Shown here piece by piece: positions 41,895-53,204 of a stretch of DNA of 64,000 nt. Source of the DNA: Lunatimonas salinarum (GTDB lineage Bacteria > Bacteroidota > Bacteroidia > Cytophagales > Cyclobacteriaceae); NCBI RefSeq assembly GCF_017811155.1, contig NZ_JACVCV010000012.1, positions 62,001 through 126,000 on the forward strand. The letters are read 5' to 3'. The position numbers and the translations under genes are program-made. The notes below the pieces were generated by a model. That model made no database searches and was not told the origin of the DNA. It was given only the letters and a program-made list of their open reading frames with translations. Positions within the stretch are counted from its first letter, which is position 1. Every line of letters starts with the position of its first letter.

Positions 41895-43376
41895 ATGATT
41901 GAAGAAAAAAGACAAAGAACCTTAGAACCTGAGGTTAAGCAAAAGTACGAATTGGTCATCGGGTTAGAAGTTCACGCTCAGCTGCTGACAAACAGTAAAA
42001 TGTATACCGCTGATTCCACCATGTTTGGAAACATGCCCAATACCAATATATCAGTCATTACACTGGGCCATCCCGGAACATTGCCAAAAGTTAATAAGCG
42101 GGCTGTAGAGTTTGCCGTCAAAATGGGCCTTGCCTGTGATTCTCGGATTACCCGTAGAAATATTTTTGCGCGCAAGAACTATTTTTATCCCGACCTCCCA
42201 AAGGGATATCAAATTACGCAAGATAAAGATCCCATTTGTGTAGGTGGGAAGGTTCCCATTATCCTCGGCAGTGGGGAGCGGAAAACCGTTGCCCTCACCC
42301 GAATTCACTTGGAGGAGGATGCTGGTAAATCCATCCATTTGGCCGGTGAAGTAGATACCCTGGTAGACTTTAACCGGGCCGGAGTGCCTTTGATAGAGAT
42401 TGTTTCTGAACCGGACATGCGATCTTCGGAAGAAGCATATCAGTTTTTGACAGAGATTAAAAAGCTTGTTAAATACCTGGATATTTGTGACGGCAATATG
42501 GAAGAGGGTTCGTTGCGCTGTGATGCCAACGTCTCTATTCGCCTGCACGGCACCACCGAGTTTGGTAAAAAGGTAGAAGTTAAAAATATGAACTCCTTCC
42601 GGAATGTGGCAAGGGCGATAGAGCATGAGTTTGAACGACAAATTATGCTGGCTGAGAGCGGAGAGGAAATTATATCGGAAACGAGAACGTTTGATGCTAC
42701 GTCGGGTACAACGAGCGGGATGCGAACCAAGGAGGATTTAAATGATTACCGTTACTTTCCTGAGCCCGACCTGAGTCCGGTGGTGGTTTCAGAAGAGTGG
42801 CTAAATGCCATTCAGGTCAGTTTGCCTCCTTTGCCAAGAGAGCTTTTTGAAAAGTTCGTTACAGGCTACGGTTTACCCGAGTACGATGCCGGGGTATTGA
42901 CGGATAGCAAAGAGATCGCCTTGTATTTTGAAGATTTATGTCAATTGACCAAAAATTACAAAGCAGCTTCAAATTGGATGATGGGTCCCATAAAGTCTTA
43001 CCTTAATGAGCTCACCTTGCATATTGTGGATTTTCCGATTAGGCCGGCAGGTATTGCAGCCCTGATCGAACTTATTGACGAAGGAAAGGTTAGTTTTTCT
43101 GCGGCATCTCAAAAAATCTACCCAGAGCTGTTAAGGAACCCTAATAAAGCTCCCTTGGAAATTGCGACCGCACAAAACTTGATTCAACAAAGTGACGAGG
43201 GTTCACTGAAACCTATCGTTGCACAGGTTCTGGCAGAGAATGCGCAAAAGGTTGATGAATACCGTGCGGGAAAGAAAGGGTTGATGGGCATGTTTATGGG
43301 GCAGGTGATGAAGAAGAGCCAAGGCAAGGCAGACCCGAAGGTTGCGTCGAAGTTATTATCCGAAATGTTAGACTAA
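41895..43376 (+). CDS. gatB: Aspartyl/glutamyl-tRNA amidotransferase subunit B
   Basis: A 493-residue protein, started at ATG 41895 because the family core YELVIGLEVHAQLLTNSKMY begins 18 residues later; an earlier ATG at 41841 would add an unusual tail. FYPDLPKGYQITQ, EEDAGKSIH, DFNRAGVPLIEIVSEPDMRS and EEGSLRCDANVSIR are standard GatB blocks. The C-terminal YqeY-like tail includes YRAGKKGLMGMFMGQVMK. With GatA and GatC it converts Glu-tRNA(Gln) and/or Asp-tRNA(Asn) to the amide forms; those partners are not in the window. Confidence 0.97.
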   Translation: MIEEKRQRTLEPEVKQKYELVIGLEVHAQLLTNSKMYTADSTMFGNMPNTNISVITLGHPGTLPKVNKRAVEFAVKMGLACDSRITRRNIFARKNYFYPDLPKGYQITQDKDPICVGGKVPIILGSGERKTVALTRIHLEEDAGKSIHLAGEVDTLVDFNRAGVPLIEIVSEPDMRSSEEAYQFLTEIKKLVKYLDICDGNMEEGSLRCDANVSIRLHGTTEFGKKVEVKNMNSFRNVARAIEHEFERQIMLAESGEEIISETRTFDATSGTTSGMRTKEDLNDYRYFPEPDLSPVVVSEEWLNAIQVSLPPLPRELFEKFVTGYGLPEYDAGVLTDSKEIALYFEDLCQLTKNYKAASNWMMGPIKSYLNELTLHIVDFPIRPAGIAALIELIDEGKVSFSAASQKIYPELLRNPNKAPLEIATAQNLIQQSDEGSLKPIVAQVLAENAQKVDEYRAGKKGLMGMFMGQVMKKSQGKADPKVASKLLSEMLD

Positions 43377-43382
43377 GTGAAA

Positions 43383-44504
43383 ATGACAAATAAAATAGTT
43401 CAAAATTACGTGGTATTCTTGGTGCTTTTTTCCGTAGGTATGTTGTCCTGTGCGGAAAAGGAGCAAGCCTTTACCGGACAGGTTGAGGTTGCCGGCCAAA
43501 TCAAAAATGCACCGGAGGGGGTGTTGGTACTTTCAGAATATACCCAAGAGGGCGCATCTGTACTGGATACGATTGCGTTGGATAAGAACGGTAAATTTAC
43601 CTATCAAGTAAGTCTAGAGGGGCCTACCTTTTACGACCTGAATCTCTTTGACGAAAAGACGATCCGATTGGCCTTGTACCACGAAGATGTGGAGATTACC
43701 TACGATGCAGCTACGGAAGAATTGGAGATTGCCGGAGCGAAGGATACCCAGATGCTGCGTAAGATAGATGATCTGACGGGGGTTTACCAAGAGGAAATTA
43801 ATGCGCTGAATGACGAGTACTACCAGGCGATGGGTGATAGGGATCAGCAAGCGATTCGAGGGATCCAAGAAAAGGCCATGGCACTGGAGTCAAACCATGC
43901 GCAACGCCTCAAAGAGGTGATCAACGGGATGGAAGGTAGCTTTGCGGCATTGGCCGGTCTGGGCATGCTAAATCCCAGGAACGACTTTGCCTATTTGGAT
44001 AGTTTGGTGGATGTGTTGGCCCAGCGATATCCGGATATGAAGATGATCAGCTCGTGGAAGCAGGAGCTGGAAGAACTGAGGGCACTTTCCATTGGGCAAC
44101 CTGCACCTGAAATTGAACTTCCAGACCCGGATGGGAATCTGGTTAAACTATCGGATCTGAAAGGGAAATATGTGTTGATAGATTTTTGGGCTGGGTGGTG
44201 TAAGCCATGTAGAGATGAAAACCCGAACGTAGTGAGACTTTATGAGAAGTACAAAGACAAAGGTTTTGAAGTGTTCGGCGTTTCCTTGGATAGAACCAAA
44301 GATATGTGGATAAAAGCCATCGAGGAAGACGGGTTAAAATGGACTCAGGTTTCGGATCTAAAATACTTCAATTCAGAGGCTGCGGCAACCTATCAGATTA
44401 ACGCGATTCCCGCTACCTATATGGTAGATCCGGATGGAAACATCTTGGCAAAGGATTTGCGGGGCATTACACTCGAAAATAAATTGGCGGAGTTGTTCGA
44501 TTAA
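43383..44504 (+). CDS. TlpA-like thiol-disulfide oxidoreductase lipoprotein (DUF4369 + thioredoxin)
   Basis: A 373-residue lipoprotein: signal MTNKIVQNYVVFLVLFSVGM then LSC. The N-terminal half (about 28-130) resembles the DUF4369 domain usual in Bacteroidetes TlpA-like proteins, followed by a helical segment. The C-terminal thioredoxin fold (about 235-373) has the redox motif WCKPC in FWAGWCKPCRDENPN and the cis-proline region NAIPATYMVDPDG. It probably reduces disulfides in periplasmic proteins. It begins 6 bases after gatB; ATG 43383 is preferred over the GTG at 43377. Confidence 0.88.
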   Translation: MTNKIVQNYVVFLVLFSVGMLSCAEKEQAFTGQVEVAGQIKNAPEGVLVLSEYTQEGASVLDTIALDKNGKFTYQVSLEGPTFYDLNLFDEKTIRLALYHEDVEITYDAATEELEIAGAKDTQMLRKIDDLTGVYQEEINALNDEYYQAMGDRDQQAIRGIQEKAMALESNHAQRLKEVINGMEGSFAALAGLGMLNPRNDFAYLDSLVDVLAQRYPDMKMISSWKQELEELRALSIGQPAPEIELPDPDGNLVKLSDLKGKYVLIDFWAGWCKPCRDENPNVVRLYEKYKDKGFEVFGVSLDRTKDMWIKAIEEDGLKWTQVSDLKYFNSEAAATYQINAIPATYMVDPDGNILAKDLRGITLENKLAELFD

Positions 44505-44530
44505 ATTGTTTTTCAACCGCTGGAAAAATG

Positions 44531-44563
44531 TTTTCCTGAATGTCAAAGAATCTTATATATTCG
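44531..44563 (+). promoter_or_regulatory. Candidate promoter for the 44777-49132 operon
   Basis: TATATTCG (44556-44563) resembles the Bacteroidetes -7 element (TAnnTTTG, one mismatch) and TTTTC (44531-44535) lies at the -33 distance. If it is right, the first gene has a leader of about 205 bases, long enough for regulation. The rest of 44564-44776 is AT-rich and shows no other gene or known riboswitch. Confidence 0.35.
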
Positions 44564-44776
44564 CACCTTGAAAGCAAGGAATCTCACGGACAATTCATCT
44601 AAAGGCAAATTTATGACGGCAGATTATCAATGAATCAAAATTGACTTGAAGCTTAAAACTTAATTATCTAATTACCCGATCACCCAATAAAGTACTTAAA
44701 GGTTTTATATAAATGTAGCCAGCACATAACCCTGGATAAGCACTTTAAATTTCCACACTATCTATTAAAGTTAAAC

Positions 44777-45247
44777 ATGAAAAGAACAAGTTTTAATTTC
44801 CCAATGAACCGGTTGTTAACCATGATGCTGATTGGATTATTGGCATTAGGAGCCTGTAAGAGTAAGAAAAAGGTAGTAGAAGCCGCCCCTGCGCCGGTAC
44901 CCGTAGAGGAACCTGCTCCTGCACCGAAACCTGCACCGCCAGCCCCATCTGCTGAAGAAGTAGCAGCTGGTAAGCTTGAAGGCTATTTTAATGCTATTGT
45001 GAATGCATCAAATGTCAATAGTGCAAACAACACCATTCGTGAAGCACTGGGCATGTTTTCAAATCAGAATACACCGGTATTGATTGTCATTCACGAAGAA
45101 TCGGGTATCAAAGATTATGATGAACCAACGACTATAGACAAGTACTTGAATTATTTAAAGGACACCAAGAAGAACTTGAACTTTATCAGCGATATCCGGT
45201 TAGACGGAAGCGGTAGAGTGACAGAATTAGAACTTAGAAGAAGGTAA
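44777..45247 (+). CDS. Proline-rich lipoprotein of unknown function
   Basis: A 156-residue protein. Signal and lipobox: MLIGLLALGAC, with acceptor Cys at about residue 27; translation may begin at Met10. A Pro/Ala-rich spacer (about 38-60, EEPAPAPKPAPPAPSAEE) would carry the domain away from the membrane. The C-terminal ~95 residues form a mixed alpha/beta domain, including TPVLIVIHEESG and ISDIRLDGSGRVTELELRRR. I do not recognise the family. It is the first gene of a four-gene cluster of exported proteins ending with an LRR protein. Confidence 0.6.
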   Translation: MKRTSFNFPMNRLLTMMLIGLLALGACKSKKKVVEAAPAPVPVEEPAPAPKPAPPAPSAEEVAAGKLEGYFNAIVNASNVNSANNTIREALGMFSNQNTPVLIVIHEESGIKDYDEPTTIDKYLNYLKDTKKNLNFISDIRLDGSGRVTELELRRR

Positions 45248-45274
45248 TTTACAAACGATAAGCTGCAAACAATC

Positions 45275-45853
45275 ATGAAAAAACATATTCTATCCCTACT
45301 TATTCTGTTCATGGCATCCTCAATGGTTGTCGTGGCGCAAAACGACAATATCAGCCCTGCCAGAAAGCAAGCCATTGACTCCCTTGCATTGGAGAAGGTG
45401 AAAGACTTGAGCAAATACATCAGTATCATTGGAAGCAAGGAGACTCAGTTTTCTGAAGCAACGAGAGTGATGGATAGAGCAGAGGAGTTATTTGCGCCCG
45501 ACGCTGAAATGGGTGTTTCTTCGATAAACCGAAGTGAAATCGCTTACTACAAAGTGCGTAGATACTTTGAGCGATTGATGGCACTTAATTACGATCGGGT
45601 GAATATCAGCTGGTATGACATTCATTATATTAGCGACCTCGAGCGGCAGCCTGACGGCCGGTATGTAGGTGTAATTACCATCTATCAGCGATTCGAAGGT
45701 ACTTCCGTGGAAGCTGGATTAAATTACAGAGATACAACTAAAAAGGACATCACAATCTACGTGGAGAAAAAGCAAACACAGATCGCCGGTAGAACCATCG
45801 AGTTTTGGGATGTGATGCTTGGAGACGTGAGGGTGACTGAGACTTCCGCATGA
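45275..45853 (+). CDS. Secreted protein of unknown function, GSxE/NTF2-like
   Basis: A 192-residue exported protein with signal peptide MKKHILSLLILFMASSMVVVAQ. A helical segment with the motif YISIIGSKETQFSEA (about residues 48-62) precedes a beta-rich part with WYDIHYISDLE and VGVITIYQRFEG; the layout suggests a small alpha/beta cup such as an NTF2-like fold (inference). The N-terminal region of the LRR protein downstream has a similar stretch (YLLNTVGSEESLARDK). Its stop overlaps the next start by 4 bases. Confidence 0.6.
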   Translation: MKKHILSLLILFMASSMVVVAQNDNISPARKQAIDSLALEKVKDLSKYISIIGSKETQFSEATRVMDRAEELFAPDAEMGVSSINRSEIAYYKVRRYFERLMALNYDRVNISWYDIHYISDLERQPDGRYVGVITIYQRFEGTSVEAGLNYRDTTKKDITIYVEKKQTQIAGRTIEFWDVMLGDVRVTETSA

Positions 45854-46689
45854 AATTAAAAATTGTTCTGTTATTCTTATTTATTTCATCCTTTCAGCAA
45901 GTTCCGGGGCAAGTATTAAACAGCTCCGGAACACTGAAGGACGATGGTAGGTTCGCAGCATCTACCAAACAAGTCAATCAATTCTTTAGACGATTTAATG
46001 GAGAGGAAAGTAAAGAAGGCGATAGGCGGTATAATCCTGGAGATGAAAATTACCGAAATAGGGAGCTGAGAAGGTCGTTCATCAATATACTTTTCGACAA
46101 CGAAACCTCCGATCTTCCCGTTGAATTAAAACGGGAGTTTCTAAATTATGTAGTCTCCGAGAGTTATCCTCAATACCTTAGCTTTCATGGAGGAGAATGG
46201 TTTGCAGAGGCAACAACCGTTTTTACCTATGGAGGCAGATCGCACGATGTGATATTGTTCTTGAAATTGCAACCGCAGGGACTAGGGTATGAATGGGTAA
46301 TAGAAAATGTACTATTTGATCCATTTAAATCTGCCTTTAACAAGCCGCAAGGGGACGATAAGAAGTTCCTTCATCCTTTGAGTCACGAACTTGGGTTTAT
46401 GAACCTGAGGAAGGCCATTCAGGATGATCCTAAGCCGGAATCCTATACCCCCAAGGAATTCAGGCCGGATTACTTAAGCCTTTTTATTTATGAAATTAAA
46501 AGAGGCGACTTGAAGTTCGTGACGGTAAAGGATGTTAAGTACCATTTCTTTCAAATTGACAAATGGTACTTCGAGCTTTCGCAATTTAACAGACCTGGAT
46601 TTAATACCGGATGGCTGATATCAAATTTGGTGAAACTCTCCGAAGGGGACAAGGAACTAGTTTTGGAATACATTTATGACAATAACTAA
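45850..46689 (+). CDS. Secreted protein of unknown function
   Basis: A 279-residue protein with signal MKLKIVLLFLFISSFQQVPGQ. The mature part starts with a charged region (RRFNGEESKEGDRRYNPG), then FINILFDNE, EWFAEATTVFTYGGRSHDVILFLKLQ and, near the end, YHFFQIDKWYFELSQFNRPG. No known domain is recognised. The start overlaps the upstream stop (ATGA) and the end overlaps the LRR gene by 14 bases, so the three are translated together, suggesting joint action at the cell surface or periplasm. Confidence 0.6.
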   Translation: MKLKIVLLFLFISSFQQVPGQVLNSSGTLKDDGRFAASTKQVNQFFRRFNGEESKEGDRRYNPGDENYRNRELRRSFINILFDNETSDLPVELKREFLNYVVSESYPQYLSFHGGEWFAEATTVFTYGGRSHDVILFLKLQPQGLGYEWVIENVLFDPFKSAFNKPQGDDKKFLHPLSHELGFMNLRKAIQDDPKPESYTPKEFRPDYLSLFIYEIKRGDLKFVTVKDVKYHFFQIDKWYFELSQFNRPGFNTGWLISNLVKLSEGDKELVLEYIYDNN

Positions 46690-49132
46690 AAACATCAAAT
46701 ATTTTTTTGTGGGGTGTTTGTTGCTGGGTTCGCTCAGTGTGCAGGCACAGGATATTCCCGGTTTTACCAAGCAGGAAATCAAAGACTTAGCGCAGGAGGT
46801 CGAAGAGCAAGTTAGGTTTCTTCAGTACCTCCTAAATACTGTGGGAAGTGAGGAAAGCCTTGCCCGAGACAAGGATGTGATCATTCGGGAGAGCTATAAG
46901 AAGATTTTCCGTGACGACAACGTGCAGGTGGAGGATGATCTTCTGCTAGATAGGAAGGTGATTACCAATAAAAATGTCACTGCCTATTTTAAGGATGTGG
47001 AATTTTTTTTCAAAGATGTATCCTTTCAGTTTAAGGTGAAGGAAATAAAGCCTAAACTCAACGATAAGGGAGAACTTTTCTTTGAAGTGGCTATGGACAG
47101 GACATTATCAGGTACAGGCATTAACGGCGAACCAATTGAAAATACTAAAAATAGGTTTGTAGAAGTTAATTTTGACCAGAAATCCAAGGAACTTAAAATC
47201 GCTAGCATGTACACTACAAGGCTAAGCCGCGATGAGGAGCTTACAGAATGGTGGAGTACGTTATCATATGAGTGGGGCAACTATTTCCGGGAGCGATTTG
47301 GCATTCTCGAAGAAGACTCCGTAACCGTAGATGACCTTTATCGGATAAGTGGGATTGATTCATTGGACCTTTCAGGGAATCCCCTCATCATAGACCTTAG
47401 CCCCATTGAGGCACTGAATGAGTTAAAATACATTGATATTAGCCACACCAACATTCGAGAGCTTGCCCCGATCAGCAATGTAACGTTTCTTTCTTACCTA
47501 GATATCTCCAATACGCCTACTGAAGAAATTCAGTTCATAAAGTATTCCGATCGGTTGACTCACCTGAACCTCTCACACACAGGGATTAAGGATATAGACG
47601 ATTTGCTTAACTTGAAAAATCTTGTAGACCTTCGTCTTGCAAATACGAGTTTGTTAGGGTTTGGTGTATTGAATCAATTTGTCGCGCTCGAAAACCTCGA
47701 TTTGGAGGCAAGTGGATTTAATAATATTGAAAATATTAATGGGCTAAAGCGGCTCAAATCCCTTAATTTGAAGGATAACTTTTTGATTAACTTCGGATTT
47801 CTTTCGGAGCTGACCGCATTGGAAGATATTAATCTGGAGGGGACCAATATTCTCGACCTGAGTCCGCTCGCAGAGCTAAAGGAGCTTTGGAAAATAAATA
47901 TAAATGGGACAGAGGTGAGTTCCTTGGCCGCACTGAATGGGTCGGTGAATATTCGGAGAATTTACGCAGATAGGTCAACCATTTCGGAACAAAGTGCAGA
48001 TGAATTTGCAAGGAGGAATCGAAGGATTCTTTTGATCCATAACGTGGAAAATCTCCAAACGTGGTGGGAAACGCTTCCTGAGGGTTGGAATAAGGCACTT
48101 AGCGATCTTTTTCCTAGTATGAATTTTCAAAATCCTTCCATTGAAGAACTTTCTGAGTTGGTTGGGATAGATTCCTTAAATCTTTCCGGTTCGGAAGTGA
48201 CGAATCTTAGGCCGGCGTTAAAGTTTAAGAAAGCATTCTTTTTGTCCATAGATCAGACAAGGGTAGCCGATCTCACTCCTTTGGTAGAGATGAAGACATT
48301 GACCACCCTTAGTGCAAACCAAACCCCCGTGGCAGGCCTAGAACCACTCGGTGGACTAGCTGCATTGGAGCGTCTTTTCCTGAAGGGTACCAAGGTTACG
48401 AATATCGATCCGATAAAAGAACTGGTCAATTTGAGGTACGTGGATATTGACGCAACAGAGGTCGCTGCGTGGGATGCAGAGTCATTGGCAACTATTTTGC
48501 CCAATGCAACGATCGTGTACAGGACAGAAGAACTACATTCTTGGTGGGAATCACTCGATAATCATTGGCAGGATATTTTAAAAAGTCAATTTGAGATTTC
48601 TGAGACGCCTACTTCGGCCCAGTTGCATGCTATGACGGCCCAGGACGGTGTGCGGATAGAGGATTCCGAGGTGTTGAATCTAGAGCCTTTACTGGTCTTT
48701 TTTAATTTAATACACCTCTCAATTCACAATGCGCCCTTGCAGGATATAAGCGCGCTTACTCGGATGGAAAATTTAGGGTCACTGAGAATGTCCCAAGTTC
48801 CGGTCAAAGACTTGATACCGCTTTCAGGTTTACTCTTCTTGGAGGAGTTGGATCTGTCCAATACGGGTGTGGAGGACCTTCGTCCAATTGCAGGACTTAG
48901 TAGGCTGAAAAAGCTAGTGCTTTCTGGAACAAATATTTCCCGCTTGAGGGGATTGGAGACGTTGTACGATTTGCGGGAACTGGACATCGCTAGCACAAAC
49001 GTCAAATCTATCAAGCCTATAATGCATCTTATTAATTTAGAAAGATTGGTTTGTTTTAATACGCGGCTGAATCAGCGGGCTATTGACAATCTGAAAGAAG
49101 CAAATCCTACTTGTGAAGTAAGGTATTATTGA
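46676..49132 (+). CDS. Secreted leucine-rich-repeat protein with three WW-type caps
   Basis: An 818-residue exported protein with signal peptide at about 1-26 (FFVGCLLLGSLSVQAQ). The N-terminal ~160 residues resemble the secreted protein encoded two genes upstream. A motif W-W-x-[ST]-L, followed some residues later by another W, occurs three times (Trp pairs at residues 192-193, 463-464 and 623-624), each followed by an acidic-helical stretch and an LxxLxLS-type LRR block: about 225-440, 495-600 and 655-810. LRR units read LDLSGN, LKYIDISHTNI, LTHLNLSHTGI. A role in protein-protein binding is likely; the target is unknown. Confidence 0.75.
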   Translation: MTITKNIKYFFVGCLLLGSLSVQAQDIPGFTKQEIKDLAQEVEEQVRFLQYLLNTVGSEESLARDKDVIIRESYKKIFRDDNVQVEDDLLLDRKVITNKNVTAYFKDVEFFFKDVSFQFKVKEIKPKLNDKGELFFEVAMDRTLSGTGINGEPIENTKNRFVEVNFDQKSKELKIASMYTTRLSRDEELTEWWSTLSYEWGNYFRERFGILEEDSVTVDDLYRISGIDSLDLSGNPLIIDLSPIEALNELKYIDISHTNIRELAPISNVTFLSYLDISNTPTEEIQFIKYSDRLTHLNLSHTGIKDIDDLLNLKNLVDLRLANTSLLGFGVLNQFVALENLDLEASGFNNIENINGLKRLKSLNLKDNFLINFGFLSELTALEDINLEGTNILDLSPLAELKELWKININGTEVSSLAALNGSVNIRRIYADRSTISEQSADEFARRNRRILLIHNVENLQTWWETLPEGWNKALSDLFPSMNFQNPSIEELSELVGIDSLNLSGSEVTNLRPALKFKKAFFLSIDQTRVADLTPLVEMKTLTTLSANQTPVAGLEPLGGLAALERLFLKGTKVTNIDPIKELVNLRYVDIDATEVAAWDAESLATILPNATIVYRTEELHSWWESLDNHWQDILKSQFEISETPTSAQLHAMTAQDGVRIEDSEVLNLEPLLVFFNLIHLSIHNAPLQDISALTRMENLGSLRMSQVPVKDLIPLSGLLFLEELDLSNTGVEDLRPIAGLSRLKKLVLSGTNISRLRGLETLYDLRELDIASTNVKSIKPIMHLINLERLVCFNTRLNQRAIDNLKEANPTCEVRYY

Positions 49133-49500
49133 GGGGTTGTTATTTTTAATTTTACTTAAAGCCAAGTAGGTATTAATTGCTTTATTTTTAGATTAACTTA
49201 TTTTTTTTTGTTTTTAATTTGGGTCATCAATGATAATAAAAGTTTATATTATTTTTTATGGTTTCTCGGACTCATCGATTAGTTTTTGATGAGTTTAGCC
49301 GATTCGCTTAAATTTTCGGTAAAGCCGAAAAAAAACTCCTGTTTGAGCGCAATTTCTAAAATTATCTTCTTAGCTTTAACTCATAGAAACAGTTGCTAAT
49401 CAGAATTTTCTTGGAAAGCGGTTGATAGGTACGTTCAGATTGAGTTTTAGAATGATAGATTTGTGTTTTGTTGGTGTCCTTTTTAGGATGATCTGACCGA
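49133..49500. other. AT-rich non-coding gap
   Basis: The stretch between the LRR gene and the next cluster is strongly AT-rich. I see no gene. Two small inverted repeats are visible: ACTCATC / GATGAGT (49270-49294) and TTTTCGG / CCGAAAA (49313-49331), the latter followed by A residues on this strand. Neither forms a convincing plus-strand terminator. The promoter for the next genes is at its right end. Confidence 0.4.
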
Positions 49501-49531
49501 TTGTATAGGTCCAAGTTATTTTTCAGGTTTG
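49501..49531 (+). promoter_or_regulatory. Candidate promoter of the 49569-52530 cluster
   Basis: TTG (49501-49503), a 20-base spacer and CAGGTTTG (49524-49531) match the Bacteroidetes promoter with one mismatch in the -7 box. Transcription would begin near 49538, about 30 bases before ATG 49569. Confidence 0.45.
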
Positions 49532-49568
49532 CAAAGTCCCGTATCAGAGAAATAAAATGTATACTGTT

Positions 49569-50687
49569 ATGAAAAAAAACCTTCATTACGTATTCCAGGG
49601 TTTGTTGATATTGTTGTTGGGAGGTGTGTCACTTGGAGTCTTTGTTCAATGTGCTCCTCAGGAGCTGGATTTAATTCCTCCGTTTCAGCAGATCACGGAA
49701 GATTTCGATGAGGTTAACGACCTTCCCGGTGTAGATGATCCAGAGCCTAATATCGAGGACCCTGATTACGAAGACGTTGGTCCTTCGGATGAAGTAGGAA
49801 ATCTTTTAGAAGAGGTGATCCTTTTTTCGGAGGAGGGCAGAGTAATTTCAGAGCCGTCCAGAAAGGCACTTCGTGAGCTAAATGACGTCCTAAAGCAGGA
49901 AAATACCGGTTCTGATTTGCTTGTAAATTTAGACTTGGAATTTTTGATCAAGTTGATGAATCCGGAAAATGAAATCGACTCGGAATTGGAACAATTCCTC
50001 AATGAATTTTTTGCGAAGGCAAATGTGGATATCCCATTGCCGCTAATTCCAGAGTACGGTCAGGTAACTAGCGTGGAAGATATTGCTGCAAGGTTACAGA
50101 CCGAAGGCTCGTTATTGGCCGGCTTGCGCCAGAATAATGGAGGTCAGGGAAATCAAGGCCAGGGGAATCGACCTTCTGATTTATATTCCTCTTGCGTAGT
50201 GGAGGCCAATGAAGCGTTTCAAACAAGATTGGCTGACCTTACCGCACAGTTGATAGAGCAGGAAGACGAAATTAATGGAAATTACCTGCGCAGAGCCTAC
50301 GACGCCGAGGAGCGGCTTATTGAACGGAATATCTTGGTGCATGAACTACTCATGGAGCAATTGGTTGAGCATCAAACCACTATCACTTCGATAATGCAAG
50401 CAGCTACGAGAGCGGTGAACCACGGCGATCATGAGTTGAAGGAAGATTTACTCGCATTTGCTTTGGTTTATGCAATTTATATCAGAAATCAAATGGGTGC
50501 TTGGTACCTCGGTAGCTTGGCGTACAATTATGTTTTTTATGAGGCCGAGTTGGATAGCATCAAAAAGATCCGTGATAATGGCATCGCTGCCATCAAAGCG
50601 CATTATGAGGAAGCAATCGCCCATGCAGAGGCAGTACTAAATAACGCCATTCAAGTTTACTGCCACAATCAGGGTTCTGGGGCCTGA
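49569..50687 (+). CDS. Uncharacterised exported protein with coiled-coil region
   Basis: A 372-residue protein started at ATG 49569, giving MKKNLHYVFQGLLILLLGG then VSLGVFVQC, a lipoprotein-like signal with a non-canonical lipobox; ATG 49557 is an alternative. The N-terminal mature part is very acidic and Asp/Pro-rich (about residues 34-75). A G/N/Q-rich patch (NNGGQGNQGQGNRPS) lies near residue 190. The C-terminal ~165 residues are helical and glutamate-rich (QLIEQEDEINGNYLRRAYDAEE cut here to its core RRAYDAEE), suggesting a coiled coil. No known family. First gene of an envelope cluster. Confidence 0.6.
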   Translation: MKKNLHYVFQGLLILLLGGVSLGVFVQCAPQELDLIPPFQQITEDFDEVNDLPGVDDPEPNIEDPDYEDVGPSDEVGNLLEEVILFSEEGRVISEPSRKALRELNDVLKQENTGSDLLVNLDLEFLIKLMNPENEIDSELEQFLNEFFAKANVDIPLPLIPEYGQVTSVEDIAARLQTEGSLLAGLRQNNGGQGNQGQGNRPSDLYSSCVVEANEAFQTRLADLTAQLIEQEDEINGNYLRRAYDAEERLIERNILVHELLMEQLVEHQTTITSIMQAATRAVNHGDHELKEDLLAFALVYAIYIRNQMGAWYLGSLAYNYVFYEAELDSIKKIRDNGIAAIKAHYEEAIAHAEAVLNNAIQVYCHNQGSGA

Positions 50688-50692
50688 TATTC

Positions 50693-51388
50693 ATGAATTC
50701 CATTCTCAAACATTTGATAGGACTGCTCTTGGTTATTGGGAGCAGTCCTTTGTTTGCCCAGATAGAACTGAACAATGTCAGTGTTGGAACTGGTTTGTGG
50801 AATAGAACCTATGCTGGTGTAGATGAGCGTTCCTTTTTGATCGGGTATGAACAGGCGTCCACTTATGTGAATAGGAGCTTGATTCCGTTTATTTCGGCAG
50901 AATTGAATGTCTGGCAGGGATTTGCCATTGATGCACGGATCGGGTATTGGCGAAAGGTACTGGAATCCCACGGACTCCTCGAAGGTGATTTTCGGATTGC
51001 AGAGCAATTGGATCAACGTATTGTGCCGCTTTATGCTGGAGTGGTGTATAATTTTCCTGATATCATTCCTAAGTACCTCAAGGGATTTGCAGGGGGAGGA
51101 ATTAGCCGCTACTTTATTGACAACCGGTTTTCTAGGAAGGTTGAAGATGGCCTGGGGGATATAGAGGCCGAACCGTTCCGTGGCAACAATTATGGTGTCA
51201 ATGGGAAGGTTGGTATCGAATACCTTTTTCCTGAGTTTGTGAGTCTCGTATTTGAGGCTAGGTACCACCGCGGATTCTACCATCAAACGACGGTACTTTC
51301 AGGGGACTTGGTAAGTCCCGCTACGCAGCGTGTGGATTTGGCGGGCCTCGAATTGGGACTTGCGGTTCGGTACACCATCAGTTATTGA
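50693..51388 (+). CDS. Outer-membrane beta-barrel protein of unknown function
   Basis: A 231-residue protein with signal peptide MNSILKHLIGLLLVIGS plus SPLFAQ. The mature part alternates hydrophobic and polar residues in about eight to ten strands (AFIGY-like patterns, YAGVVYNF, KVGIEYLF, LVFEARYHRGFYHQT), and ends LELGLAVRYTISY with a terminal aromatic, typical of a small barrel. It begins 5 bases after the previous gene and shares a transcript with the YjbH-like gene downstream. Function unknown. Confidence 0.65.
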   Translation: MNSILKHLIGLLLVIGSSPLFAQIELNNVSVGTGLWNRTYAGVDERSFLIGYEQASTYVNRSLIPFISAELNVWQGFAIDARIGYWRKVLESHGLLEGDFRIAEQLDQRIVPLYAGVVYNFPDIIPKYLKGFAGGGISRYFIDNRFSRKVEDGLGDIEAEPFRGNNYGVNGKVGIEYLFPEFVSLVFEARYHRGFYHQTTVLSGDLVSPATQRVDLAGLELGLAVRYTISY

Positions 51389-51405
51389 TAGAACAGGATA
51401 GTAAA

Positions 51406-52530
51406 ATGAGGTTTATTGTTCTTATAGCATGCTGTTTTTTGATCTCCAGGCAGGTGACTGGACAGGAGTCAGTTACTTTGAACCGGCTTAGGTCTGCGGG
51501 ATTTGAACAGGTCTCGACGGCGATTATAGCCAAAGATCAACAGGTGTTTTTTTGGGAGCATAGAAATTTTAGAAGTCCCTACCACAGCTTGAAATGGGCC
51601 CGAAATCATTTAGAAGAGACCGATTCAGTTTTTTTTGTTCCATTGTATATGAATAGACCCATGGGCGTATACGATGCAAATACCTTTCAATATAGTCCTG
51701 TATCTGATGAGATTGCCAATCAGTATAAAAACCTGAATAGGCCTTTTGCCGGCTACCGCTGGAACTTTCGAATTAGCCCGGATTTTTCAGCTAGATTTGG
51801 CGATTTCGAAACCCCTTTCCGGTCTAGAACCAATGTAATTGTTGACACAAGGGTATTTATTTTACCAGGACTTAGTGTGCAGACGGGCATGCTGATACCC
51901 ATTCAAAATAATCTGGGCCAATTTGGTGCCTATGTTCGCCTGTCTCCCAGTCACCTGAATTATTTTATCTCTCCATTTAGGCACCATTTTTTGAGTCTTA
52001 CCGCTGGGACCTTTTTCCAGGATCGCTACGGGGTGGATGTGCAGTACCGGTACGACGATTTTAATAAGCGATGGAATATTGGCGTAGAAGCGTCGCTGAC
52101 GGGTTATTATTTTATTCCAGGTCTAAGTCTCTACACGGAGTCATTGAATCAGCTCAGGATATTGGGAGACATCGAATACCGGGTGATGCCTTGGAATGTC
52201 ACTACCAAACTCAGCATTGGTAGATTTTTGGGAAATGACGACGGTATTCGTTTTGATATAATCAAACAATACGGTCTGATTGATATCGGCTTTTTTGCAG
52301 CGGCTACTCGAAATGGAACCTCCGGTGGCTTTCAATTTGCCTTTCCATTGTTTCCCGGAAAACTACTTAGGGGAAAAGGGTGGGAAATAAGAACGACGGA
52401 AGAATTCCGTTGGGAGTATAATTATACCTATGAAGCTCCCATTGGTAGGAAATTTCGCCTTGGTATGCCGCGTTTGGCGGATGAACTGCGGCAGTACAAC
52501 AGTGAATTTATCCAATCTTTAAAGCGTTAG
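51406..52530 (+). CDS. YjbH-like outer-membrane protein
   Basis: A 374-residue exported protein (signal MRFIVLIACCFLISRQVTGQ; ATG 51406 preferred over an ATG at 51385). After an alpha/beta N-terminal region (about 25-105) with LRSAGFEQVSTAII, a beta-rich C-terminal part carries LSIGRFLGNDDGIRFDI and IGFFAAATRNGTSGGFQFAF followed by PLFP, reminiscent of the YjbH/DUF940 family linked to exopolysaccharide export. The match is by pattern only; the usual YjbEFG partners are not seen, so the role in polysaccharide secretion is inferred. Confidence 0.5.
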   Translation: MRFIVLIACCFLISRQVTGQESVTLNRLRSAGFEQVSTAIIAKDQQVFFWEHRNFRSPYHSLKWARNHLEETDSVFFVPLYMNRPMGVYDANTFQYSPVSDEIANQYKNLNRPFAGYRWNFRISPDFSARFGDFETPFRSRTNVIVDTRVFILPGLSVQTGMLIPIQNNLGQFGAYVRLSPSHLNYFISPFRHHFLSLTAGTFFQDRYGVDVQYRYDDFNKRWNIGVEASLTGYYFIPGLSLYTESLNQLRILGDIEYRVMPWNVTTKLSIGRFLGNDDGIRFDIIKQYGLIDIGFFAAATRNGTSGGFQFAFPLFPGKLLRGKGWEIRTTEEFRWEYNYTYEAPIGRKFRLGMPRLADELRQYNSEFIQSLKR

Positions 52531-52586
52531 TCCAACGCTTTCGTGTCCAATCTAGTTGTCTCCGTCCTGTTTTTAAGCGAGTACGA

Positions 52587-53204
52587 TTACCATTCCGCTA
52601 ATGCCTGATAAACTAAATGGACCGGAAATCCCATAACGGTATAAAAGGATCCCTCAATCTTTTCCACCGCTACGTATCCAATCCATTCTTGGATTCCATA
52701 GGCGCCAGCCTTGTCAAACGGTTTATATCGATGCACGTAATACCGGATTTCTTCCTCTTTGAGCTCTCTGAAGTACACCGTGGCCAGGTCTTCGATCAAA
52801 ACTGTTCTGTTTTGGTCAAAGATTGACACGGCTGTGATTACCTGGTGCTTTTTCCCCGATAGAGAACGAAGCATTTCATGTGCCTCCTGCATCGTTTGAG
52901 GCTTATTTAGGATTAATCCAGCGGCTAGCACTACGGTGTCGGCAGTGATCAGTATCTCTCCCTCTCCGATAACAGAGGCATAAGCGGCAGCTTTTTTTGA
53001 GGCCAAATAAGCCGCTACTTGGGTTCCTTCCATATCTGGCGGAAATGACTCGTCAACGGGTAACGTTTTCACGGTAAATTCGATGCCGAGCCCTTTCAGC
53101 AGTTCACTTCTCCTTGGAGAGTTTGATGCCAAAATGATTTTTTTGTTCGAAAGGCTCAGCTTTCGAAGAGGTGAATCCGTCACTTCGTTTTGCGGGATTT
53201 CCAT
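52587..53204 (-). CDS. maf: Maf-like nucleotide pyrophosphatase
   Basis: A 205-residue Maf-family protein. The conserved N-terminal motif ILASNSPRRSELLKGLGIEF is at about residues 25-44, the catalytic ITADTVV at about 87-93, and GAYGIQEWIGYVAVEKIEG (about 167-185) completes the fold. Maf proteins hydrolyse non-canonical or modified nucleoside triphosphates and are linked to cell division arrest. Its 5' end overlaps accC by 25 bases, so the two genes are probably co-transcribed with accC first. Confidence 0.93.
   Translation of the reverse strand: MEIPQNEVTDSPLRKLSLSNKKIILASNSPRRSELLKGLGIEFTVKTLPVDESFPPDMEGTQVAAYLASKKAAAYASVIGEGEILITADTVVLAAGLILNKPQTMQEAHEMLRSLSGKKHQVITAVSIFDQNRTVLIEDLATVYFRELKEEEIRYYVHRYKPFDKAGAYGIQEWIGYVAVEKIEGSFYTVMGFPVHLVYQALAEW

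Follow-up and report, generated by a model that had tools for sequence, protein, structure and literature searches.

A co-retained four-gene unit of exported proteins in Lunatimonas salinarum as a candidate periplasmic assembly with a predicted NTF2-like core

A four-gene unit encoding exported proteins was analysed in a 64,000-nucleotide stretch of the Lunatimonas salinarum genome (5.46 Mb), hereafter the window, in which positions are counted from the first letter. The genes, named O1 to O4, lie in tandem on the plus strand at 44777–49132, where an earlier note had placed four exported-protein genes. The unit is real, and in many related bacteria its genes are kept together, or in the same genome when they lie apart. 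At least three of the proteins seem to share one small domain, and they therefore probably assemble into an undescribed envelope machine. Whether O1–O4 are the subunits of one lipoprotein-tethered periplasmic complex is, in our judgement, evenly balanced; such a complex, if confirmed, would represent a periplasmic assembly of a new kind, present in a large set of environmental bacteria. The members of the unit are as follows:

44777–45247, plus strand: O1, lipoprotein; lipidated cysteine C27, then KSKKK, a proline-rich spacer and a C-terminal domain apparently related to O2 (approximately residues 66–156).
45275–45853, plus strand: O2, exported protein without an anchor, with a predicted NTF2-like fold; the most conserved member.
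45850–46689, plus strand: O3, exported protein without a known family (AlphaFold2 model; no match in a Pfam search with the window protein).
46676–49132, plus strand: O4, exported protein; N-terminal domain apparently related to O2 (approximately residues 25–180), three WW-x(5-6)-W modules and leucine-rich repeats (LRRs).

The overlaps of 4 bases (O2/O3) and 14 bases (O3/O4) given in the earlier note were confirmed and are largely kept in relatives. Its proposal of export signals on all four products stands for O1 through the lipobox (C27), and for O2–O4 through N-terminal signal-like segments called by eye. A recognisable enzymatic domain had been denied to all four proteins, and Pfam and NCBIfam indeed returned no enzyme domain and, above the Pfam cut-off, the LRRs of O4. 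The modules of O4 lie at residues 192, 463 and 623, and internalin-type LRRs follow each of them.

The closest named relatives are two Lunatimonas loci, with O3 identities of 93% and 88%. A search with O3 matched 62 of 98 genomes of the same family, and 40 stretches of at most 20 kb around these matches were fetched, which are the ones read at full length among the 62 genomes. Six were paralogous loci and 34 were primary relatives. In the latter, O1, O3 and O4 occurred in order on one strand in all 34, and O2 in 33. The O2/O3 overlap was exactly 4 bases in 23 of the 33 primary relatives having O2 beside O3; O3 and O4 overlapped in 31 of 34 (exactly 14 bases in 19), with start codons for these counts chosen by script. 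The gene overlaps are not chance. In the named collection, the best 80 of 540 candidate stretches encoding a relative were kept; 79 held all four genes and the 80th ended at a contig end, so homologues of the four genes are not rarely together. These loci were picked by O3, and they therefore demonstrate linkage rather than independent co-occurrence.

Co-occurrence was evaluated by separate profile searches of the same 241 order-level genomes with O1, O2, O3 and the O4 N-terminal domain (O4N). Strong matches were limited to E ≤ 1e-30 for O1, ≤ 1e-78 for O2, ≤ 1e-90 for O3 and ≤ 1e-50 for O4N, the next weaker matches being 5.5e-5, 9.1e-64, 7.5e-80 and 9.6e-16, respectively. The genome and contig lists for the tally were transcribed by hand. 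Strong matches were obtained in 56 genomes for O1, 55 for O2, 56 for O3 and 54 for O4; together they covered 56 of the 241 genomes, of which 53 carried all four genes, one lacked O2 and two lacked O4, and 185 genomes had no strong match. In both genomes without O4 (G626 and G663), O3 lies no more than 0.9 kb from a contig end. Weaker, paralogous-type matches raise the O2 count to 84 of 241. Fisher tests gave p < 1e-49 with phylogeny ignored, values that are not readable as probabilities. Fifteen of the 56 genomes have the genes spread over two or more contigs. In G542, G489 and G531, no gene place comes closer than 11 kb to a contig end; part of the split-contig cases, perhaps G674, could reflect fragmentation. 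All ten O4 genes from split-gene genomes keep three WW modules and LRRs. Within the family, strong matches to O1, O2 and O3 occurred in 61 of 98 genomes, and one genome (G027) had O2 and O3 without O1. Phylum-wide, 11 of 395 genomes matched the O2 profile. Six of these belong to the own family and two to the order (judged by score to be of the paralogous type), and three weak matches fall in one other genus.

It is very improbable that O1–O4 are mere neighbours, co-inherited without joint function. The upstream alaS–gatB–TlpA block is also kept in 36 of the best 80 named loci, and some loci end at contig ends; however, other loci with 8 kb of upstream sequence keep O1–O4 without this block, and the reading is already contradicted by co-retention with the genes on different contigs.

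Constraint differs among the members. In 11 loci sharing the upstream genes, mean identity to the window was 89.9% for O2, 80.5% for GatB, 78.5% for O1, 72.2% for AlaS, 69.5% for O3, 62.9% for the TlpA-like protein and 59.4% for O4. In each of the two same-genus pairs, O2 had the lowest nonsynonymous rate (dN) among seven genes (0.013 and 0.018), followed by O1 (0.017 and 0.041), with GatB at 0.035 and 0.078; only dN is given because the synonymous rate between same-genus loci was saturated. Of the four members, O2 thus tolerates the least change and O4 the most, a pattern that would be expected of a core and a recognition arm. O1 is a lipoprotein as described in the earlier note, with a lipobox in 34 of 35 alignment rows, and the proline-rich stretch in that description is not the conserved part: many relatives carry a Lys/Glu/Ala-rich spacer in its place, and the kept parts are the lipobox, a basic KSKKK-like start and about 90 C-terminal residues.

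No sequence family in Pfam, NCBIfam or PDB matched O2 or O3 with E below 1e-3, and the best library match of any row in the O2 alignment reached E 0.0022. These two proteins are outside all families in the searched libraries, yet O2 is stricter than two housekeeping proteins encoded nearby. A PADLOC search gave no match at E ≤ 0.01, and membership of the anti-phage defence systems covered there was rejected. No description of the unit was found among the matches listed in open-access literature searches; subscription papers were mostly outside that scope, so an earlier description is possible. The unit can accordingly still be called undescribed and was matched to no characterised system in these searches.

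The AlphaFold2 model of O2 (predicted local distance difference test, pLDDT, 89.8; predicted template modelling score 0.78) gave 842 Foldseek matches, two of them with E ≤ 0.001 and mostly NTF2-like among the matches listed. After realignment, Z was at least 8 for 759 of 999 chains, and the best chain was NTF2-like (Z 13.7, root-mean-square deviation 2.6 over 130 aligned positions). The predicted fold of O2 is of the NTF2-like alpha+beta type, in which N-terminal helices pack onto a long curved sheet. Some NTF2-like proteins are dehydratases or isomerases. O2 could accordingly be an enzyme, in which case the operon might serve to modify a lipid or glycan of the envelope, the other proteins being targeting subunits. 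LinA, scytalone dehydratase and ketosteroid isomerase are among the closest folds, and conservation is very high; however, O2 matches no catalytic family in sequence and a common fold shows no function, and we consider this improbable.

Profile comparisons connect O2 with two of its partners. The hhalign probability was 85–88 between O4N and O2 and 82–86 between the O1 C-terminus and O2 with paralogues included, whereas eight control families from the same loci did not exceed 1.3. The relatedness is read from hhalign comparisons alone, because profile iteration mixed O2 and O4N. The C-terminus of O1 and the N-terminus of O4 thus seem to be tied to O2 by profile, and the fold prediction applies to O2, not to these two. 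The O3 model was fairly good (pLDDT 83.2) but had no clear fold match, with a best Z of 3.9, several weak NTF2-like and VirB8-like rows, and nothing at E ≤ 0.001 in Foldseek.

The earlier note left the site as surface or periplasm, and the periplasm is favoured here. According to PMC5080379, surface lipoproteins of Bacteroidota require an acidic signal after the lipidated cysteine, K-(D/E)2, Q-A-(D/E)2 or similar. In O1, the residues after this cysteine are mainly basic, and none of 34 lipobox rows has two acidic residues at +2 to +6; the script pattern restricted the residue at +2 only. Surface exposure of O1 is not favoured, given the absence of the acidic signal from these rows. The sorting-domain models TIGR04183 and TIGR04131 of the type IX secretion system (T9SS) gave no match at E ≤ 1 in O1–O4, and T9SS cargo status was rejected for all four on this result.

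Paralogous modules were surveyed in 40 further stretches (from the family, order and phylum; some of LRR type or holding an O1–O2 pair) together with the six paralogous loci. The paralogous loci contain O2-like and often O3-like genes, and the LRRs are replaced by tetratricopeptide repeats (TPRs) or other tails. An O4-like N-domain is fused to TPRs in many of them, for example in L060, and in L063 and L172 to tails with weak immunoglobulin-like (Ig-like) matches. In 18 of 33 paralogous loci, a T9SS sorting-domain protein is encoded no more than three open reading frames (ORFs) away, compared with three of 39 LRR-type loci, all three on the opposite strand; anywhere in the stretch, the latter figure is five of 39. 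For these counts, L194, L195, L196 and L199 were excluded from the paralogous group, L175 had no labelled ORF, and L165, L166 and L169 belong to neither group; nine of the ten tails used to build the sorting-domain models come from counted loci. Of the tails of ten neighbouring proteins, eight were type A candidates, of which seven exceed the TIGR04183 cut-off and L197 falls just short; the other two qualify as type B. For the tails of downstream giant proteins, six of the seven tested exceed the TIGR04183 cut-off, and the seventh is short by 0.2 bits. PorP/SprF adjoins three loci (L060, L196 and L204). At L196:4128-10225, in a genome whose main locus lacks O2 (G063), an O1–O2 pair is encoded in divergent orientation next to PorP/SprF and a gene for type B T9SS cargo. 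At L190:10285-11499, a caspase-domain (Peptidase_C14) protein is encoded directly upstream of an O2–O3 module and a T9SS cargo gene.

The periplasmic complex has two main rivals, a part in the handling of T9SS cargo and a function as a sensor. The former draws on the cargo genes and PorP/SprF beside paralogous loci described above, and SprA_N was found in 54 of the 56 unit-bearing genomes. However, SprA_N occurs in 217 of the 241 genomes regardless, and this correlation is uninformative because SprA is nearly universal. The LRR-type loci are rarely cargo-linked, and G567 (99% complete) and G637 (62% complete) have the four genes without a SprA_N match. We rate cargo handling as unlikely, although it is the stronger of the two.

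The paralogous modules also include a kinase. In L060, a Ser/Thr kinase occupies the O1 slot directly before O2, O3 and the O4N–TPR gene, and its sequence shows a hydrophobic stretch around residue 291 and ends in an O1-like tail. The kinase tails of L060 and L204 scored 17.0 and 18.7 bits against the O1 domain model, above 500 of 500 shuffles each, and the two tails matched each other with an hhalign probability of 87. The tail lies behind a membrane segment and should therefore be periplasmic, suggesting that the O1 domain and its partners act there. A search of the 98 family genomes recovered the kinase tail in G030 (to which L204 belongs) and G027, with two further weak hits at E 4e-4 and 9e-4. 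L204:5778-12787 encodes PorP/SprF, a membrane Ser/Thr kinase with the O1-like tail, a PP2C phosphatase and a TPR protein in one block, possibly a T9SS-linked phosphorylation path; the N-terminus of the TPR protein matched the O4 N-domain profile (13.5 bits, 0/200 shuffles). The C-terminus of a membrane protein in L207 was rejected as O1-like, since 12 of 500 shuffles reached its score; its neighbour (L207:9682-10281) matched the O2 profile (12.2 bits, 0/200 shuffles).

These kinases invite the reading of the unit as a periplasmic sensor or sequestering signalling module, in which the O1 domain would report the state of O2–O3–O4, through an unlinked partner here and directly through a Ser/Thr kinase in paralogues. 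The O1-like tails of the two membrane kinases, the one of L204 next to a phosphatase and to a TPR protein whose N-terminus is O4-like, speak for it. However, the window's unit has no gene for a cytoplasmic output, the kinase tail is present in two of 98 family genomes and not in that of the window, and the genome of L204 lacks both O2 and O3. The sensor role is less probable still than cargo handling.

A link of one paralogous module to type VI secretion was weakly indicated. At L176:4735-10697, O2-like, OmpA-domain and O4-like genes stand directly before the type VI secretion genes PAAR and TssC, and one of 40 O2 rows matched a TssJ model (E 0.029).

With the gene order, conservation, co-retention, profile relatedness of three members and predicted O2 fold as given above, a working model of the periplasmic complex can be outlined. 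O1 would be held by its lipid, most likely in the outer membrane's inner leaflet, and its spacer, flexible (Pro-rich) or helical, would keep the C-terminal domain off the membrane. O2 would form the conserved NTF2-like core and bind the related domains of O1 and O4, O3 may bridge or cap the assembly, and the LRR blades of O4 would serve as an arm recognising an envelope client. By analogy with the paralogous modules, arm and output may be interchangeable: arms can be TPR or Ig-like, often beside cargo of type IX secretion, and one locus carries a transmembrane Ser/Thr kinase instead of O1. Tentatively, and with rather less confidence than for the complex itself, we propose a new class of adaptor machine with a shared NTF2-like periplasmic core, swappable anchors (lipoprotein or transmembrane Ser/Thr kinase) and swappable arms (LRR, TPR or Ig-like), in which the LRR form would stand alone and the others would couple T9SS surface proteins to the cell interior. 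If so, the kinase-linked forms would provide a concrete route for surface proteins to signal inward.

Several observations weigh against the periplasmic complex and the evidence behind it. The periplasmic site, the contacts between O1–O4, the subunit roles and the existence of a client are what we infer, including the physical assembly put forward in the earlier note. Foldseek alone was modest for O2 (best E 6.7e-4). The hhalign values are single comparisons and not database searches; the O2–O4N probability drops to 60 in one direction with paralogues included, the O1–O2 probability is 12–59 with O2 orthologues alone, so that this link depends on paralogues, and O3 has no reliable profile relation to O1, O2 or O4 (probability ≤ 20). 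The surface signal was defined in other families and divergent signals exist (PMC5080379), and four of the 34 O1 rows have one Glu at +6. The kinase tails gave no match to the O2 profile (152 and 86 of 500 shuffles reached the score), and G030 has no O2 or O3 match. G628 (89% complete) carries O1, O3 and O4 without O2, and L058 has no O2 beside O3, its genome (G063) holding the O1–O2 pair elsewhere (L196). O3 is missing from 36 of the 98 same-family genomes, and the system is therefore dispensable for the family.

The gap upstream of O1 spans 272 bases and contains one further feature:

44556–44563, plus strand: -7-like element TATATTCG, possible promoter (read in the sequence).

TATATTCG resembles the -7 element of the phylum consensus and may belong to a promoter. 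A transcription start near 44570 would give a leader of about 205 bases, so the position fits the leader proposed in the earlier note, and the motif recurs in L032 and L085, both loci of the same genus. Over its whole length, however, the gap lacks conservation: in 16 sequences the mean column identity was 37% and no column was invariant. An Rfam search of 43300–52600 gave nothing at gathering score. A conserved leader RNA was rejected on these two results, without a covariation test. Downstream, 49133–52605 between O4 and maf encodes a lipoprotein (by eye), a probable beta-barrel (weak match) and a YjbH-domain protein. The genes at 49557–52530 had no match in the 80 named loci or the 40 family stretches and were rejected as operon members. 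In the two Lunatimonas loci examined, the genes of this region are missing and O4 is followed by the maf region within approximately 80 bases; the roughly 3.4 kb reflect either a gain in the window or a loss in these two loci.

Four known systems offer comparisons. PorP/SprF-associated T9SS cargo loci house some paralogous modules, whereas neither PorP/SprF nor a cargo gene is among the four members of the window's unit. The T9SS proteins PorK and PorN, described in PMC10202324 as an outer-membrane lipoprotein and its soluble periplasmic partner, follow a like logic of a lipoprotein with a periplasmic partner; however, LRR-type loci are rarely near T9SS cargo genes, and O1–O4 matched no named T9SS component family in Pfam or NCBIfam at E ≤ 1. 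The repeats of O4 match LRR_4 and internalin LRR models, as in internalin-type LRR proteins. Unlike internalins, O4 has an N-terminal domain apparently related to O2 and WW modules between LRR blocks, and its identity as an internalin was rejected on a score of 143.6 bits against the InlA cut-off of 1600. Several members of the NTF2-like superfamily are oligomeric hubs or periplasmic secretion parts. The O2 model aligns with this superfamily (LinA, ketosteroid isomerase, the CaMKII hub and VirB8-like CagV) over most of its mature part, with Z of 13.7–11.2 and identities of 3–17% in the best 50 of 999 chains. O2 differs from these proteins in having no sequence family match and in that at least three proteins of a single exported set carry apparently related domains.

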